Virus record (IMG/VR): IMGVR_UViG_3300010354_008387
Location: 1-26,317 of that record
From: a virus
Length of the DNA: 26,317 nt
Strand: one strand, 5' to 3'
Below the pieces are notes generated by a model. That model saw nothing but the letters and a program-made list of their open reading frames with translations. It did not search any database and had not been told where the DNA came from. The position numbers and the translations under genes were made by a program. Positions 7,532 through 21,658 of the stretch are shown here, piece by piece (within the stretch, counting starts at the first letter, position 1; each line of letters opens with the position of its first letter).

Positions 7532-7539
7532 CATAAATA
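7532..7539 (+). promoter_or_regulatory. T4-type late promoter motif
   Basis: CATAAATA lies 7 bp before the ATG of the 486-aa gene. It fits the nATAAATA late consensus of marine T4-like phages. With such short spacing the transcript would begin at or very near the start codon, so either the mRNA has almost no leader or the motif is fortuitous. Confidence 0.45.
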
Positions 7540-7546
7540 TGTAATC

Positions 7547-9007
7547 ATGCGCGATCTCATAAACATTATTCTTAACGAAGTCACTCTAAGCAAGTACGGC
7601 CCTGGGCAAAAATTCATTATTAGTAACAGTGCAGTCGGACAAGAACTATCTAGTCGATTGGCTGCTTTGGGTCTAACCATAGATGGCACTATTGAACTTA
7701 CAAATAAATCCAAGGGTCTTGAATCCTTGGTCAACAAAAGCGAGATAATGACACGATTTGGTAACGGAACAGATGTATATGAATTTCGTACCGAAGACGA
7801 TGTGTATTTTTATGTGTTTGGAACAACTGGCACGATTGAAACAGCATTAAATCACAGTAAAGAAAGTTCTATAAGCAATCGCGGCGAAGTCAGTGAAGGT
7901 ATTCTTGGTGCAGCTATGTTTGCTAAATTTACAAAAAGACAACCAGGCGAAGAAGTAGGAACGATCACTTCTGCTGACATCACTAACGTTTTAGATACTC
8001 TACAATCGCAAGGTAATGATACCTATAGCGTTACAGTGAATGATGCTGATAGCGAAATTGCCGATACGATAAGTTTTGTGTTAAGATTAAAAACAGCCCC
8101 TTATCAGGACTTGATGAATCCTTTAAAACGCAAGCTTATTACAAACGAACTCAACAGTGCCGCTGCGTATGTGAACAGTGCAATGGCCGAACGATACAGT
8201 AAGTATTTCTACTTGAACGGTCGCGCTGACGAAATAAACATTATGGCAGATGGTGCCGCCAGTGAAACAGAAAAAAAATCAGATGTATGGGTAGGCATAA
8301 GAGATAAAAATGGCGCTATGCGTACCCTGAAACTCAATGCCAGTTTAAAAGTTGGCGGTGTAGCACAGTTTGGACAAGTTGGCGGTAGCGATACGGAATC
8401 TATGACCAAGCTATTTGGATACTTTGGAATCAATGTTGAACCTTATGTTGCAAAATTTGAAAACCAATACAAAAAGGATCCAATCAAGGCTGTTGAATAT
8501 ATGTACAGACAAATCACAGAAGAGTTACAATCACGACTGACCGGTAATGATGATACCGAAGAAGCCAGATTTGTTGATCAAGTGGCACAAGCTGTTACGC
8601 ACTTTGCTACACTTGGCGATCCAAATGTTGAACTTGTTGACTTTGATAAAGGCGGTTTTAAAATTTTACGATTTAAGAATCTACAATACAAACTGCGTAA
8701 CATAGATTTGACTGCAAGTTATACAGGTAAGACTAGACCTGAAATTAGCATACACGATGTTGAAAATCCAAAAAAGGAACTGATTGCAATTCGCTGCAAA
8801 GTAGAAAATAAAAAATCTGGACCTTATGTTCGTAACTATATCGAAAAAGGATCTTTACTTGAAGAAATAACCAAGGTTCAAGATCGCAGTTTCAAAGAAC
8901 TAGAAACGCCTGACCCGGAATCGACCAGAGTAAAAATAAGACCGCGGGGTAGACAAGTTGAACCTCGTGACAAAGATACAACCCCACGTCAAAAACGCGA
9001 TAAGTAA
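7547..9007 (+). CDS. Phage protein of unknown function (486 aa), possibly nuclease-like
   Basis: I cannot assign this gene. It is soluble, without signal peptide or membrane segment. The N-terminus MRDLINIILNE is typical of many marine T4-like phage proteins. A central part (about 244-280) reads KKSDVWVGIRD...LNASLKVGGVAQFGQ, and a C-terminal part reads LIAIRCKVENKKSGPYVRNYIEKGSLL. An Asp followed about 20 residues later by SLK is loosely like the PD-(D/E)xK nuclease core, but the acidic catalytic residue before the lysine is absent or shifted. I treat that as a hint only. The last 30 residues are very basic and proline-rich, which suits nucleic-acid contact or packaging in the virion. A CATAAATA motif precedes it, so late expression is likely. 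Confidence 0.7.
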   Translation: MRDLINIILNEVTLSKYGPGQKFIISNSAVGQELSSRLAALGLTIDGTIELTNKSKGLESLVNKSEIMTRFGNGTDVYEFRTEDDVYFYVFGTTGTIETALNHSKESSISNRGEVSEGILGAAMFAKFTKRQPGEEVGTITSADITNVLDTLQSQGNDTYSVTVNDADSEIADTISFVLRLKTAPYQDLMNPLKRKLITNELNSAAAYVNSAMAERYSKYFYLNGRADEINIMADGAASETEKKSDVWVGIRDKNGAMRTLKLNASLKVGGVAQFGQVGGSDTESMTKLFGYFGINVEPYVAKFENQYKKDPIKAVEYMYRQITEELQSRLTGNDDTEEARFVDQVAQAVTHFATLGDPNVELVDFDKGGFKILRFKNLQYKLRNIDLTASYTGKTRPEISIHDVENPKKELIAIRCKVENKKSGPYVRNYIEKGSLLEEITKVQDRSFKELETPDPESTRVKIRPRGRQVEPRDKDTTPRQKRDK

Positions 9008-17370: not shown

Positions 17371-17405
17371 TTGTAACACGCTTGTAATCTTTGTATGTTT
17401 AAATA
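17371..17405 (+). promoter_or_regulatory. Pho box and -10 for pstS (PhoB-type)
   Basis: TTGTAAC (17371-17377), four bases, TTGTAAT (17382-17388): 7-bp direct repeats with an 11-bp period, as in PhoB sites (consensus CTGTCAT-N4-CTGTCAT). A TAAATA -10-like element (17400-17405) follows 11 bp after the second repeat. The promoter at 19919 has the same geometry, which strengthens both. Confidence 0.78.
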
Positions 17406-17440
17406 TTATTGTGCGATGCACATAATATGGAGATTATACA

Positions 17441-18466
17441 ATGAAAAAACTATTAGCAGTTGTGTTTGCTGCCATGGCCTTTAGTACCAATGCAGCGGAA
17501 CTCACTGGAGCAGGAGCAACGTTTCCTTTCCCTATCTATGCCAAATGGGCAGAAGCTTACAAAGCTGCAACCGGCATTGGTTTGAATTATCAATCAATTG
17601 GATCTGGTGGTGGTATCAAACAGATAAAGGCAAAAACAGTAGACTTTGGTGCAAGTGACATGCCACTTAAACAAGAAGAACTTGACAAGGAAGGACTAAT
17701 TCAATTTCCGGCAGTGATCGGTGGTGTAGTGCCAGTATTTAATTTAGATGGTGTTGCACCAGGCCAATTAAAGTTGACACCAGAAATTATTGCAAATATT
17801 CATCTTGGTCGTATTACCAAGTGGAACGATAGAGCAATTGTAGAATTAAATGCTGGTGTGAATTTACCAGCACTCAATATTACAGTTGTACATCGTGCCG
17901 ATGGTTCGGGTACCACTTTTGTATGGACAAACTTTTTAGGTAAAGCCAATGCCGATTTTCAAAAGATTGTAGGTGAAGGCACAGCAGTAAAATGGCCAGT
18001 GGGTGTAGGCGGTAAAGGCAATGAAGGTGTGGCGGTACAAGTGCAGCGTATCAAAGGTGCCTTTGGTTATGTAGAATATGCATACGCAAAAAGAAATAAA
18101 ATCGCACATGCTCAATTACGAAATCGCGACGGTAATTTTGTACAGCCCAGCGATGACACATTCAAGGCCGCAGCAGCCAATGCAGATTGGGCCAATGCAC
18201 CAGGTATGTACTTGTTGCTGACTTGGCAAACTGGTAAAGATGCATGGCCAGCTACAGGTGCTAGTTTTATTTTAATGCACAAGCAGCAAGCCGACAGTCT
18301 GACTGGTAGGGCAGTTTTAAAATTCTTTGATTGGAGTTGGAAAAATGGTGCCAAGATGAGTGAAGAGCTGGAATACGTTCACTTACCACCAGCTGTAATT
18401 AAATTAAATCAAGACTCTTGGCGCAAAGAAATACGCGGCCCAGACGGTACTTCAATTTGGAAATAA
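17441..18466 (+). CDS. pstS: Periplasmic phosphate-binding protein PstS
   Basis: PstS captures inorganic phosphate in the periplasm for the PstCAB transporter of the host. The 341-aa product has a Sec signal peptide (MKKLLAVVFAAMAFSTNAA, cleavage about after residue 19). It also has the family landmarks GAGATFPFPIYAKW, SIGSGGGIKQI, VDFGASDMPL and RADGSGTTFVWTNFL, which contain the phosphate ligands. Wording such as GGKGNEGVAVQVQRIKGAFGYVEYAYAK is close to beta/gammaproteobacterial PstS. GGAG lies before ATG 17441, and a Pho box lies upstream, so PhoB-controlled expression during host P-starvation is expected. The porin gene follows after 9 bp in one operon. No pstCAB genes are present, so the phage protein must work with the host transporter. 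Confidence 0.96.
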   Translation: MKKLLAVVFAAMAFSTNAAELTGAGATFPFPIYAKWAEAYKAATGIGLNYQSIGSGGGIKQIKAKTVDFGASDMPLKQEELDKEGLIQFPAVIGGVVPVFNLDGVAPGQLKLTPEIIANIHLGRITKWNDRAIVELNAGVNLPALNITVVHRADGSGTTFVWTNFLGKANADFQKIVGEGTAVKWPVGVGGKGNEGVAVQVQRIKGAFGYVEYAYAKRNKIAHAQLRNRDGNFVQPSDDTFKAAAANADWANAPGMYLLLTWQTGKDAWPATGASFILMHKQQADSLTGRAVLKFFDWSWKNGAKMSEELEYVHLPPAVIKLNQDSWRKEIRGPDGTSIWK

Positions 18467-18475
18467 GGATTAGCA

Positions 18476-19882
18476 ATGAAAACATTTACAAAAATTGCAT
18501 TGGCCATTACGTTAGCTTTTAGTTTACCTGCATATGCAGACGAATATATTGATACGTTAAATATTCTACGTGATAAAGGTATTTTGACTCAACAAGAATA
18601 TGACAAAAAAATACAAGACTACGAAGAAAAAGCAGAAAATCGAAAGTTTGCCGAATCAAGAATTGATAAAGACGTCAGTGATAACAACAAGTATCGCATT
18701 GCGAGAGTCAATGACGGATCAGTCACAGAAAATGGAATCGGACTCAAAAGTAAAGATGGAAACAATACCATACAACTTACAGGTCGACTTCATATGGACT
18801 ATCGTCAGTACTCCCCGGATTACGGTACAGGTCAAACCACAGATTCGTATCAGAACCTAGCCGAAGCACGCCGTGCCAGATTTGGTGTACGTGGACAGTT
18901 TGCCAAAGACTTCAAGTATCAGCTGTTAGCCAACTTTGGTGCCAGTGACGGATTTAGTAGCACTTCAAGTACTGCCGACGAAATGTGGGTAAACTGGGCT
19001 GCTAATCCTGAAATGCAATTTCAATTTGGCCTGTTCAAAATGCCATTCAGTTTAGAACAAATGACCAGTTCAAACAATTTAGATTTCATGGAACGTAGTT
19101 TAATTGGTCAAAATGATACTGAATTTATTCCTGCAAAGGAAACTGGCTTTATGCTACACGGTGTGCCCAAACCTGGATTGACCTACGCATTAGCCCTGAG
19201 CAGAGGCAAATCAAATAAAGATGCTATCAATGATGGCTTTGATTATATTGGACGCATAACAACCAACATTGCTGAACTAACCGGAAGCAAAGCTTACACT
19301 GCTCACATAGGTGCAGCATACAGTGTAGGTGATATCAAAAGCGGAGTGATCCCTGCCAGTGGTAGAACCGAGGCTAGAACTCAGTCCGGATGGTTTACCG
19401 GATCTGCACTAAGTGGAATAACATCAAGAACACGTCAAGGACTAGAAGCTGCATTTGCTTACAATGCATTAAAAGTGCAGGCAGAACAGTTCAATTTTGT
19501 TTATGATCCTACCACAGGTTCAAATCAAGAAATTCGAGGTCATTATGTGCAAGCTGTATACAATCTAACCGGTGAAAGTCATGCTTACAAAGATGGCACA
19601 TTTGGTTGGATTAAGCCAGCCAACAGTGTAGACAAAGGTGGTCGTGGTGCCTGGCAAGTGGGTGTGCGTATGAGTGAGTTTGATGCTAGTGATATCACTG
19701 TGGCCACAGGCAAAGCCAATCGTGCCACTGCAATGACCTACGGCATCACTTGGTTTGCAACAGACAATCTACGCTTCATGCTCAACTACAGCGATACCAA
19801 GTTTGACAGCCTGGTAGGCAGCTCTGGCAGTAGAGTAAATGGTGAAAAAGCAGTGATGTTCAGAAGTCAATTAAGCTTCTAA
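18476..19882 (+). CDS. Phosphate-selective porin (OprP/OprO-like)
   Basis: The 468-aa product has a signal peptide ending AYA (cleavage about after residue 21). Next come a helical, coiled-coil-like start (YIDTLNILRDKGILTQQEYDKK), a long beta-rich region and a C-terminal phenylalanine (FRSQLSF), which is the outer-membrane-protein sorting signal. The segments IQLTGRLHMDYRQYSPD, RRARFGVRGQF, FGLFKMPFSLEQMTSSNNLDFMERS and VQAVYNLTGE are typical of the phosphate-selective porin O/P family. It would form a 16-strand channel letting phosphate into the periplasm, where PstS picks it up. It shares the Pho-box promoter with pstS (9-bp gap, AAGGA before the ATG) and ends with a strong terminator. An outer-membrane porin is a rare phage cargo. 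Confidence 0.9.
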   Translation: MKTFTKIALAITLAFSLPAYADEYIDTLNILRDKGILTQQEYDKKIQDYEEKAENRKFAESRIDKDVSDNNKYRIARVNDGSVTENGIGLKSKDGNNTIQLTGRLHMDYRQYSPDYGTGQTTDSYQNLAEARRARFGVRGQFAKDFKYQLLANFGASDGFSSTSSTADEMWVNWAANPEMQFQFGLFKMPFSLEQMTSSNNLDFMERSLIGQNDTEFIPAKETGFMLHGVPKPGLTYALALSRGKSNKDAINDGFDYIGRITTNIAELTGSKAYTAHIGAAYSVGDIKSGVIPASGRTEARTQSGWFTGSALSGITSRTRQGLEAAFAYNALKVQAEQFNFVYDPTTGSNQEIRGHYVQAVYNLTGESHAYKDGTFGWIKPANSVDKGGRGAWQVGVRMSEFDASDITVATGKANRATAMTYGITWFATDNLRFMLNYSDTKFDSLVGSSGSRVNGEKAVMFRSQLSF

Positions 19883-19890
19883 AAAAATAC

Positions 19891-19912
19891 AAGCCCCGAA
19901 AGGGGCTTTTTT
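19891..19912 (+). terminator. Rho-independent terminator after the porin gene
   Basis: AAGCCCC / GAAA tetraloop / GGGGCTT followed by a run of six T, 8 bp past the porin stop. It closes the pstS-porin operon. The next Pho box begins only 7 bp further on. Confidence 0.93.
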
Positions 19913-19918
19913 GTGGCC

Positions 19919-19953
19919 GTGTAATGGATTTGTAATCTTGCTGACATTAAATA
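19919..19953 (+). promoter_or_regulatory. Pho box (three repeats) and -10 for the PlcP-like gene
   Basis: GTGTAAT (19919-19925), TTGTAAT (19930-19936) and CTGACAT (19941-19947) repeat every 11 bp; the last is one base off the E. coli half-site CTGTCAT. TAAATA (19948-19953) follows 11 bp after the second repeat, exactly as upstream of pstS. The ATG at 19959 is then 5 bp from the -10, which would give a leaderless or very short-leader transcript. Confidence 0.78.
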
Positions 19954-19958
19954 ATTGT

Positions 19959-20747
19959 ATGACAAGAACATACCGTAGCATTTTTATCAGCGATGTTCAC
20001 CTAGGCACTAAAGATTGTAAAGCAGAAGCACTCAATAATTTTTTGAAACACAACACCTGTGAAACTCTTTATCTAGTAGGTGATATTATTGACGCTTGGA
20101 AGATTAAACAAAACAAGTGGCGCTGGAAGCAGAGTCACACCAATGTGGTGCGTAGAATCATGGGTCATGCCAAAAGAAAAACTAGAGTGATTTATGTGTT
20201 AGGCAATCATGATGAATTTTTAAGACCATATTTGCAGTACAATTTGAATTTTGGTATGATAGAGTTGCACAATCATTTTGAACATATTGGAGCAGATGGA
20301 CGCAGGTATCTTGTAGTACACGGAGACATGTTTGACGGTATTACTAGACTGGCACCCTGGTTAAACTTTTTGGGAGACAAGGCATACGATGCTATATTAT
20401 CAATCAATAGTAAGTTCAATTGGATCTTACATAGAGTGGGTATTGGCTATTTTAGTCTTAGTCGTTTCCTTAAGCACAAAGTGAAACGAGCAGTTGACTT
20501 TATTTTTCAATTTGAAAATAATCTCGCTGCCTATTGTAAAAAACGTGGCTTCGATGGTGTGATCTGCGGACACATCCATCACGCAGAAATCAAAGAGATT
20601 GATGGTATCATTTACATGAATGATGGTGATTGGGTGGAATCTCTTACAGCCCTGGTAGAACATTATGATGGCAAGTGGGAAATAGTGACATGGACACAGG
20701 ACAAAGATAATGTGGTTGATGATATTGATAGCTGTACACATCAATGA
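19959..20747 (+). CDS. PlcP-like metallophosphoesterase (candidate phospholipase C, lipid remodelling)
   Basis: The 262-aa calcineurin-like phosphoesterase has all metal-site motifs: SDVHLG (11-16), GDIIDAW (41-47), GNHDE (82-86), HGD (121-123) and GHIHH (204-208). It is usually annotated as UDP-2,3-diacylglucosamine pyrophosphatase (LpxH-like). However, the phrases LVGDIID, YVLGNHDEFLRP, VVHGDMFD, DGVICGHIHHAEI and GDWVES resemble PlcP, the phospholipase C that P-starved alphaproteobacteria and marine bacteria use to strip head groups from phospholipids. A Pho box directly upstream favours PlcP over LpxH, since lipid A synthesis is not P-induced. I chose ATG 19959; an in-frame TTG at 19911 would run through the Pho box and terminator. 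A small ORF and a glycosyltransferase follow in overlap. Confidence 0.85.
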   Translation: MTRTYRSIFISDVHLGTKDCKAEALNNFLKHNTCETLYLVGDIIDAWKIKQNKWRWKQSHTNVVRRIMGHAKRKTRVIYVLGNHDEFLRPYLQYNLNFGMIELHNHFEHIGADGRRYLVVHGDMFDGITRLAPWLNFLGDKAYDAILSINSKFNWILHRVGIGYFSLSRFLKHKVKRAVDFIFQFENNLAAYCKKRGFDGVICGHIHHAEIKEIDGIIYMNDGDWVESLTALVEHYDGKWEIVTWTQDKDNVVDDIDSCTHQ

Positions 20748-20883
20748 CACTCGAGACGTTCCAGGAAAAATAATCTTGGAGTTTACAGACCAAGCCACGT
20801 GTGAACAAAGTCTTTCCACATTGTCATATTGGCTGAAATTTAAAGACTTTCGCGTTGAAGGCAAGTGTGTTAAAAAAACATGA
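20710..20883 (+). CDS. Small hypothetical protein (57 aa) between PlcP-like and GT2 genes
   Basis: This short ORF starts MWLMILIAVHINDTRDVPGK and continues with ILEFTDQATCEQSLSTLSYW and a basic C-terminus. It overlaps the end of the PlcP-like gene by 38 nt and ends in an ATGA overlap with the glycosyltransferase start, so translation passes directly from one to the other. AGGA lies 8 bp before ATG 20710. The first nine residues are hydrophobic but too few for a membrane helix. Predicted fold: strand, strand, helix, strand. No family is recognised. Its tight placement suggests a partner or regulator of the lipid module, or a bridge that keeps the operon translated. Confidence 0.62.
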   Translation: MWLMILIAVHINDTRDVPGKIILEFTDQATCEQSLSTLSYWLKFKDFRVEGKCVKKT

Positions 20884-21593
20884 AAAAATTAAGTGAAAAA
20901 ATAACTATTGTGATTCCTTGTAAAAACGAGGAAAATTATATCGTACGACTGCTAGATAGTCTACGTAGACAAAGAATTGGTGATACAAGAATTATTATTG
21001 CTGATTGCAGCACAGACAATACTAGGCAGGTGATAAAGCAAAATCAAGCTTTTTTAAATGTGGAAATCATTGATGGTGGTCCGGTGGCAGCGGCCAGAAA
21101 TCGTGCAGCTCAAATGGTAGCGACTCCTTATATTTTGTTCATTGATGCCGATGTGATACTGTTTGATGATTACACTATTCGCGACGCTGTGGATGAATTA
21201 GAATTTTATAATCTTGATTTGGTTACAGCCAACATCAGATGCTACGACAACAATAAAAAAACTGCCACGGGCTTTGCAATTTTCAACCTAGTAAACAACA
21301 TCCTTAAGCATTTTTCTCCATTTGCTGTAGGTGCTTTCATGTTGACTCGTGCGGACAAGTTTAGAGAGTTTGGGTGTTTCAATGAAAAATACAGCACATC
21401 CGAAGACTATTTTTTGAGTAGAATGTACAGCCCCAAGAAGTTTAAAATAATTGATCATTATTTTGGCCAAGACTCGCGAAGATTCGTTAAAATGGGTTAT
21501 TTTGGTATGGCAGCATATCTGATTAAAAATTTCATCAATCGCAACAACAAGGCCTACTGGGACAGATTAGATCACAACAAATACTGGAGTTAA
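20880..21593 (+). CDS. Glycosyltransferase family 2, candidate lipid glycosyltransferase
   Basis: The 237-aa product is a GT-A-fold family 2 enzyme: IPCKNEE (12-18), a GGPVAAARNRAA segment (66-77), the metal-binding DAD (89-91), and SEDYFLSR (174-181) carrying the catalytic-base region. A hydrophobic stretch around residues 131-156 (FNLVNNILKHFSPFAVGAFML) could sit on the membrane surface. It is linked through overlaps to the PlcP-like gene behind a Pho box. In P-starved bacteria PlcP makes diacylglycerol, which a glycosyltransferase converts to glycolipid; this gene could be that partner. The pairing is inferred from context: known bacterial partners are not all GT2, and a glycan role remains possible. 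Confidence 0.82.
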   Translation: MKKLSEKITIVIPCKNEENYIVRLLDSLRRQRIGDTRIIIADCSTDNTRQVIKQNQAFLNVEIIDGGPVAAARNRAAQMVATPYILFIDADVILFDDYTIRDAVDELEFYNLDLVTANIRCYDNNKKTATGFAIFNLVNNILKHFSPFAVGAFMLTRADKFREFGCFNEKYSTSEDYFLSRMYSPKKFKIIDHYFGQDSRRFVKMGYFGMAAYLIKNFINRNNKAYWDRLDHNKYWS

Positions 21594-21597
21594 ATCG

Positions 21598-21635
21598 GGC
21601 ACAACGATAGAGTGCTGCCGGAACTCGTAACCGGC
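21598..21635 (+). other. Two tandem hairpins just before the terminator
   Basis: GCAC/GTGC with a 9-nt loop (21599-21615, plus one G-T pair), one unpaired T, then GCCGG/CCGGC with a 9-nt loop (21617-21635), followed one base later by the terminator hairpin. The block starts 5 bases after the glycosyltransferase stop. It could be a structured 3' end, a small RNA, or a decayed tRNA: spacing resembles D- and anticodon-arms, but there is no T-arm. Confidence 0.55.
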
Positions 21636-21636
21636 A

Positions 21637-21658
21637 AAGACCCTAGCGGGTCTTTTTT
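21637..21658 (+). terminator. Rho-independent terminator after the PlcP-GT2 operon
   Basis: AAGACCC / TAGC loop / GGGTCTT followed by a T run (to 21658), 43 bases after the glycosyltransferase stop. It ends the second Pho-controlled unit; a late-type promoter starts 6 bp further. Confidence 0.92.

Follow-up and report, generated by a model that had tools for sequence, protein, structure and literature searches.

A candidate class of composite promoters combining Pho boxes with a late-promoter core at phosphate genes of T4-like phages

Two similar promoter-like sites precede phosphate-related genes in an IMG/VR virus record, a 26,317-base fragment referred to here as the window. The question raised by this locus is which machinery reads these sites, that of the phosphate-starved host, the late transcription apparatus of the phage, or both. 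The window encodes a UvsX-type recombinase and groups with large T4-like phage contigs; the 137-kb contig G016, which carries orthologous promoters, is a close relative. The phosphate cluster, all on the plus strand, begins with pstS, encoding a phosphate-binding protein (17441–18466; PF12849, 6.5e-36; NF008171 equivalog, 418 bits against a cut-off of 339), and a phosphate-selective porin O/P-type gene that is part of the same transcription unit (18476–19882; PF07396, 1.4e-49). An intrinsic terminator (AAGCCCCGAAAGGGGCTT followed by a T tract, 19891–19914) closes this unit and is followed by the gene for a PlcP-like metallophosphatase (19959–20747; PF00149, 1.4e-12), a 57-aa ORF and a GT2-type glycosyltransferase gene (together 20710–21593, both in the plcP unit), a structured RNA element and a second terminator. 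The PlcP-like protein matched metallophosphatase fold families only and scored under the NCBIfam cut-offs for LpxH. An attempt to name the host from the relatives of these proteins was given up, as neither the PlcP-like protein (58–61% identity to uncharacterized proteins of Hyphomonadaceae and other alphaproteobacteria) nor the porin (29–33%) nor PstS (55–58%) points to one host.

Upstream of pstS, TTGTAAC (17371–17377) is separated by ACGC from TTGTAAT (17382–17388), which is followed by CTT, and TAAATA (17400–17405) begins 11 bp past the repeat. The site upstream of plcP consists of GTGTAAT (19919–19925), GGAT and TTGTAAT (19930–19936), again followed by CTT and, 11 bp past TTGTAAT, by TAAATA (19948–19953). 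Both sites thus contain two direct 7-bp repeats at the 11-bp spacing of a Pho box (17371–17388 and 19919–19936), and each box is retained in relatives of the gene that it precedes. The positions and the 11-bp register given in the initial annotation proved correct on direct reading, as did its view that the two sites share a single Pho-type architecture at phosphate genes. Its further proposal that CTGACAT (19941–19947) forms a third good repeat at the plcP promoter, conferring stronger or graded PhoB binding, did not survive comparison with relatives, which have GCAAACC, GTAAACC, AGAAACC or GATATTC at this place; a role as PhoB half-site was therefore rejected, and the heptamer is probably mere spacer. 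The pattern TGTAAY-N5-TGTAAY-N11-TAAATA matches the window twice, at the sites 5' of pstS and of the PlcP-like phosphatase gene, and the broader TGTMAY-N5-TGTMAY-N11-TAAATA also gives two matches, compared with none in 100 dinucleotide shuffles. When the box pair alone was searched with one mismatch allowed, five matches were found against 1.55 expected, so that much of the specificity comes from the N11-TAAATA part.

Upstream of ORFs in the long relatives, few hexamers are as strand-biased as TAAATA (31 vs 10 in G006, 31 vs 6 in G013 and 33 vs 4 in G016). Since in G016 it lies 5' of the genes for the major head protein (phrog_138, 3e-101) and the tail sheath (phrog_10581, 7e-210), of two tail tube genes and of several virion structural genes, we regard TAAATA as the late-promoter core of these phages, in agreement with the likeness to a phage late motif that the initial annotation had pointed out for the −10 elements of the two sites. 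The promoters of the G016 virion genes with TAAATA showed no conserved upstream element. A longer octamer, TATAAATA, was considered as a genome-wide late motif and dropped: in full it has no match in the window, and in relatives it showed no excess over a reversed control; TAAATA was kept as the working core. At several late genes, including virion genes, the start codon lies 5–7 nt past TAAATA (window 7534–7549; for G016, L248:8939, L252:7191 and L248:11170, all on the minus strand), so that late mRNAs without a leader may be widespread among phages of this group.

To place the two sites in a comparative setting, relatives of plcP, of pstS and of the porin gene, 80 for each, were fetched and dereplicated. 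TAAATA followed a strict box pair in 32 of the 72 plcP upstream regions and in 25 of the 53 pstS upstream regions, and 15 additional upstream regions carried the box pair and TAAATA with one or two mismatches; roughly one in two pstS upstream regions and one in three plcP upstream regions lack the architecture. Around 67 distinct strict boxes, TAAATA occurred at +11 (51 cases), +21 (8) or +22 (3), that is, in 62 of the 67; other offsets up to +47 gave none. The +21/22 sites all precede plcP, and judged by eye the gap is taken up there by an extra degenerate half-site (TGACAC/TAACAC-like). Across the strict Pho sites 5' of pstS or plcP, TAAATA is invariant. In 27 long phage contigs, the full motif gave 18 matches, compared with 0 for a reversed-pattern control.

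Because these loci had been picked by their pstS, plcP or porin genes, an unbiased scan of the entire IMG/VR collection, and thus of viral contigs only, was run with a spacing-shifted control in which N15 replaced N11. At least 120 stretches matched with N11, compared with 23 with N15. Among the matches listed, 114 distinct N11 sites could be told apart, of which 40 are located 5' of plcP and 39 5' of pstS (79 together), the others lying 5' of members of one uncharacterized gene family (MRFEDLAARL...; 7) or of the RNA element (2), at a contig end (1) or at other or unresolved places (25); none of the 16 distinct N15 sites lies 5' of plcP or pstS. Occurrence of the motif at chance frequency, which would have spoken against the initial annotation, is not what we observed, given the excess over shuffles and over the reversed-pattern and N15 controls. 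A conserved class of composite Pho/late promoters specific to phosphate genes is well supported by these sequence patterns. The targets are phosphate-starvation genes, namely pstS, plcP-like genes and a Na+/Pi cotransporter gene (PF02690, 2.3e-16), the last of which was found, together with a general porin gene (PF13609), among the 25 other N11 sites listed.

Several further observations concern the genes next to such sites. The composite promoter repeatedly precedes genes of an uncharacterized family (MRFEDLAARLVAVEAKLA...; L037, L040, L501, L508, L513, L523, L526 and L537), which had no match in a Pfam search. The membrane proteins encoded 3' of some sites (L516 type) resemble phosphate permeases by eye and had no Pfam match; we make no such claim for them. 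In a different group of phages (L004, L006, L008, L009, L013 and others of the G002 type), a TGTAAC-like box pair in reversed orientation (TGTGACGGTTCCGTTACA) is found upstream of pstS, and the RNA element lies 5' of plcP, where the composite promoter would be; long contigs of this type carry a T4-sized gp55.

The geometry of the sites bears on the identity of the polymerase. The T4 late 8-mer spans −13 to −6 and has no −35 element (PMC2988020), so TAAATA corresponds to −11 to −6, and by the same numbering the predicted +1 falls at about 17411 for pstS and at 19959 for plcP. Three bacterial genomes read for comparison have TGTCAT-N10-TATCTT (two genomes) or TGTCAC-N10-TATACT (one genome) in the promoter of pstS, with the −10 element beginning at −12; the bacterial N10-TATNNT and the phage N11-TAAATA thus place the Pho box equally far from +1. 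The phage boxes accordingly overlap the −35 region at a fixed distance from the −10 position (offset 11 or 21/22 only), as Pho boxes do, and, lying at about −40 to −23, they depart from T4-type late promoters, which have no upstream element. The −10 position itself is held by TAAATA rather than by the TATNNT of a sigma70-type promoter, and weak alternatives of the latter kind are confined to pstS.

At the plcP site, the ATG (19959) starts 5 bp after TAAATA (TAAATA-N5-ATG), a feature overlooked in the initial annotation, and among the matches listed the plcP ATG is 4–7 nt past TAAATA in 34 of 40 plcP sites. This spacing would put +1 on or beside the A of AUG, and the plcP mRNA is predicted to be leaderless. 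For the pstS mRNA, about 30 nt of leader are predicted, with a stem-loop (TGTGC-GAT-GCACA, 17410–17422) at or near its predicted 5' end, similar to a hairpin seen in many relatives, and GGAG (17429–17432) 3' of it.

As for the protein that binds the repeats, the PhoB-type output domain (PF00486), which 10 of 14 control genomes have, was absent from 13 phage contigs, and the targets are phosphate genes; host PhoB is therefore likely to bind the boxes. Predicted Pho boxes are known to have poorly foretold PhoB binding in a cyanophage (PMC10976474). A phage-encoded activator acting on the repeats in place of host PhoB might explain why TGTAAY is unlike the E. coli consensus CTGTCAT and why the sites are known here from viral contigs, the only ones scanned. 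We nevertheless consider such an activator very improbable, given that the targets are phosphate genes, that the 13 contigs lack the DNA-binding domain and that related 11-bp repeats occur in bacterial pstS and plcP promoters.

If host PhoB is the binder, the identity of its partner becomes the central issue. PhoB acts via region 4 of sigma70 at promoters without a −35 element (PMC4415409, PMC4496699), whereas gp55 has a region-2-like function only and the flap site is taken by gp33 (PMC2988020). Hence, either sigma70 reads a poor −10 element at these sites or PhoB acts in a new way on the late holoenzyme. Profile phrog_234 detected a gp55-type late sigma in 13 of 21 long contigs and phrog_12791 in 9 of 18, several of the latter being contigs that carry the motif; in G006, G013 and G016, the closest of the long relatives, two PHROG profiles and a custom HMM did not find one. 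In the motif-bearing contigs, the gp55-type late sigma takes a longer form of about 300 aa (L351–L359), extended at the N terminus in comparison with T4 gp55 (185 aa).

The first of these options, in which the sites are plain host sigma70-PhoB promoters like those of cyanophages and TAAATA is an AT-rich −10 element (TTAAAT, or TATTAT at pstS) with the late machinery uninvolved, draws on the canonical PhoB geometry and on the known action of PhoB through sigma70. At pstS it can also draw on a sigma70-like TTGTAA-N16-TATTAT (17382–17409) and on a T at −1, which produces the weak sigma70 −10 element TTAAAT, in 18 of 19 sites. Nonetheless, we find it rather unlikely: the plcP sites show no preference for the base at −1 that favors sigma70, elsewhere in these phages TAAATA serves as the late core, and the invariance of TAAATA at the strict pstS and plcP Pho sites differs from the TATNNT- or TATAAT-like −10 elements of the bacterial and cyanophage Pho promoters that we read. 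No conserved Pho site with a sigma70-only −10 element was found, which, together with this invariance, favors recognition by the late machinery.

The T at −1 leaves room, at pstS only, for dual use, whereby PhoB and sigma70 would act early, and the late factor with the clamp late, from the same or an adjacent +1, PhoB aiding only the early phase. The pstS sites indeed join a T at −1 to an intact TAAATA, and this base is found in 22 of 40 sites of the Pho set compared with 11 of 79 of the late set; however, the difference stems from homologous, non-independent pstS promoters and disappears at the plcP sites. The −1 base was therefore rejected as proof of dual sigma use, and we rate dual use as quite improbable.

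The cluster ends with a strongly covarying RNA element of two hairpins (97% of cells paired, double changes in 50 cells, 0 of 500 shuffles). The copy in the window (21591–21637; model R1, 67.7 bits, E 1.2e-15; fold z −3.3) ends the plcP unit just 5' of the second intrinsic terminator (AAAGACCCTAGCGGGTCTTT followed by a T tract, 21636–21658). Rfam searches gave no match for the element (five loci at a relaxed threshold, the window at the gathering threshold). Across 22 records, model R1 never matches a contig more than once, and at 62 of the 74 IMG/VR loci with the element, pstS, plcP or the porin gene lies within 6 kb; the element belongs to the phosphate cluster. Three placements of the element occur: at the 3' end of the cluster with a terminator after it, within the leader of plcP, and immediately 3' of a Pho-late promoter; the last of these, seen in L413 and L514, indicates that it can be a separate transcript. 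Additional copies are found at L134:10154, L084:8434 and L092:10490. In L500, L545, L558 and L582, an RNA-like stretch, AATCGCC...GTGGCG...ACTGGCGCTAAGG, followed by a terminator, lies directly 3' of the Pho-late promoter and looks like a structured RNA distinct from model R1.

Taken together, PhoB/late composite promoters at both sites appear to be the best explanation, one that we consider somewhat probable. Under low phosphate, the tandem Pho box would be occupied by PhoB~P of the starved host, which would recruit or stabilize the late, phage-modified RNA polymerase on the TAAATA core of the pstS-porin unit; at the second promoter, behind the terminator, PhoB~P would act likewise on plcP and the genes 3' of it, the plcP mRNA beginning at the A of AUG. 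The outcome would be more phosphate capture and, through the PlcP-like enzyme, salvage of phosphate from phospholipids, late in infection and only under phosphate shortage. The boxes, their spacing, the late core, the specificity for these genes and the leaderless geometry come from sequence comparison, whereas binding by PhoB, reading by the late holoenzyme, induction at low phosphate and lipid salvage by the enzyme are inferred. Our confidence in action of PhoB on the late polymerase as such is moderate. The more specific proposal, that PhoB directly activates a late holoenzyme without region 4, replacing or aiding the sliding-clamp activator, and that T4-like phages possess a Pho regulon of their own on composite promoters (pstS-porin, plcP, a small structured RNA and, in some of the phages, a Na+/Pi transporter), is put forward tentatively, as plausible but short of probable. 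The sites make it possible to test whether PhoB can act on a polymerase with a sigma that lacks region 4, and a large defined set of them in viral contigs, along with a phosphate-linked structured RNA, is available as a resource.

Several known systems share parts of this arrangement. Bacterial class II PhoB promoters likewise have two 11-bp repeats instead of a −35 element, in equal register to +1, but combine them with a TATNNT-like −10 element at N10, whereas the phage sites have TAAATA at N11 and TGTAAY half-sites. The late promoters of T4, which depend on gp55, gp33 and gp45, have at −13 to −6 an 8-bp TATA-type box that contains TAAATA, as found here 5' of head and tail genes; they have no upstream element (PMC2988020), whereas in the window sites the Pho box fills the −35 region. 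In T4 the sliding clamp ties late transcription to replication, so a nutrient-sensing box at this place would amount to a second, gene-specific input to late transcription. Pelagibacter phage Mosig likewise has a leaderless arrangement, ATAAATA-N5-ATG, 5' of its plcP-like gene, which lies next to pstS; this suggests that leaderless late plcP extends beyond the phage group of the window; the Mosig gene has TTAAC-like repeats rather than a TGTAAY box. Cyanophages (the P-SSM2 pstS region, S-SM1 and P-RSM1; S-PM2d by EMSA, PMC10976474) are likewise T4-like and have host-type Pho boxes at phosphate genes that are thought to answer host PhoB. In their case pstS lies behind a DUF680 gene, with the boxes upstream of the DUF680-pstS unit, and those of P-SSM2, S-SM1 and P-RSM1, read by eye, are CTTAAC-type cyanobacterial boxes with TATAAT or TATATT −10 elements and no TAAATA, so that the composite arrangement was not found in these three. 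Use of host PhoB by cyanophages, at ordinary-looking promoters, is thus already known; what appears to be new here is a Pho box joined at one fixed distance to the late-promoter core of the phage itself.
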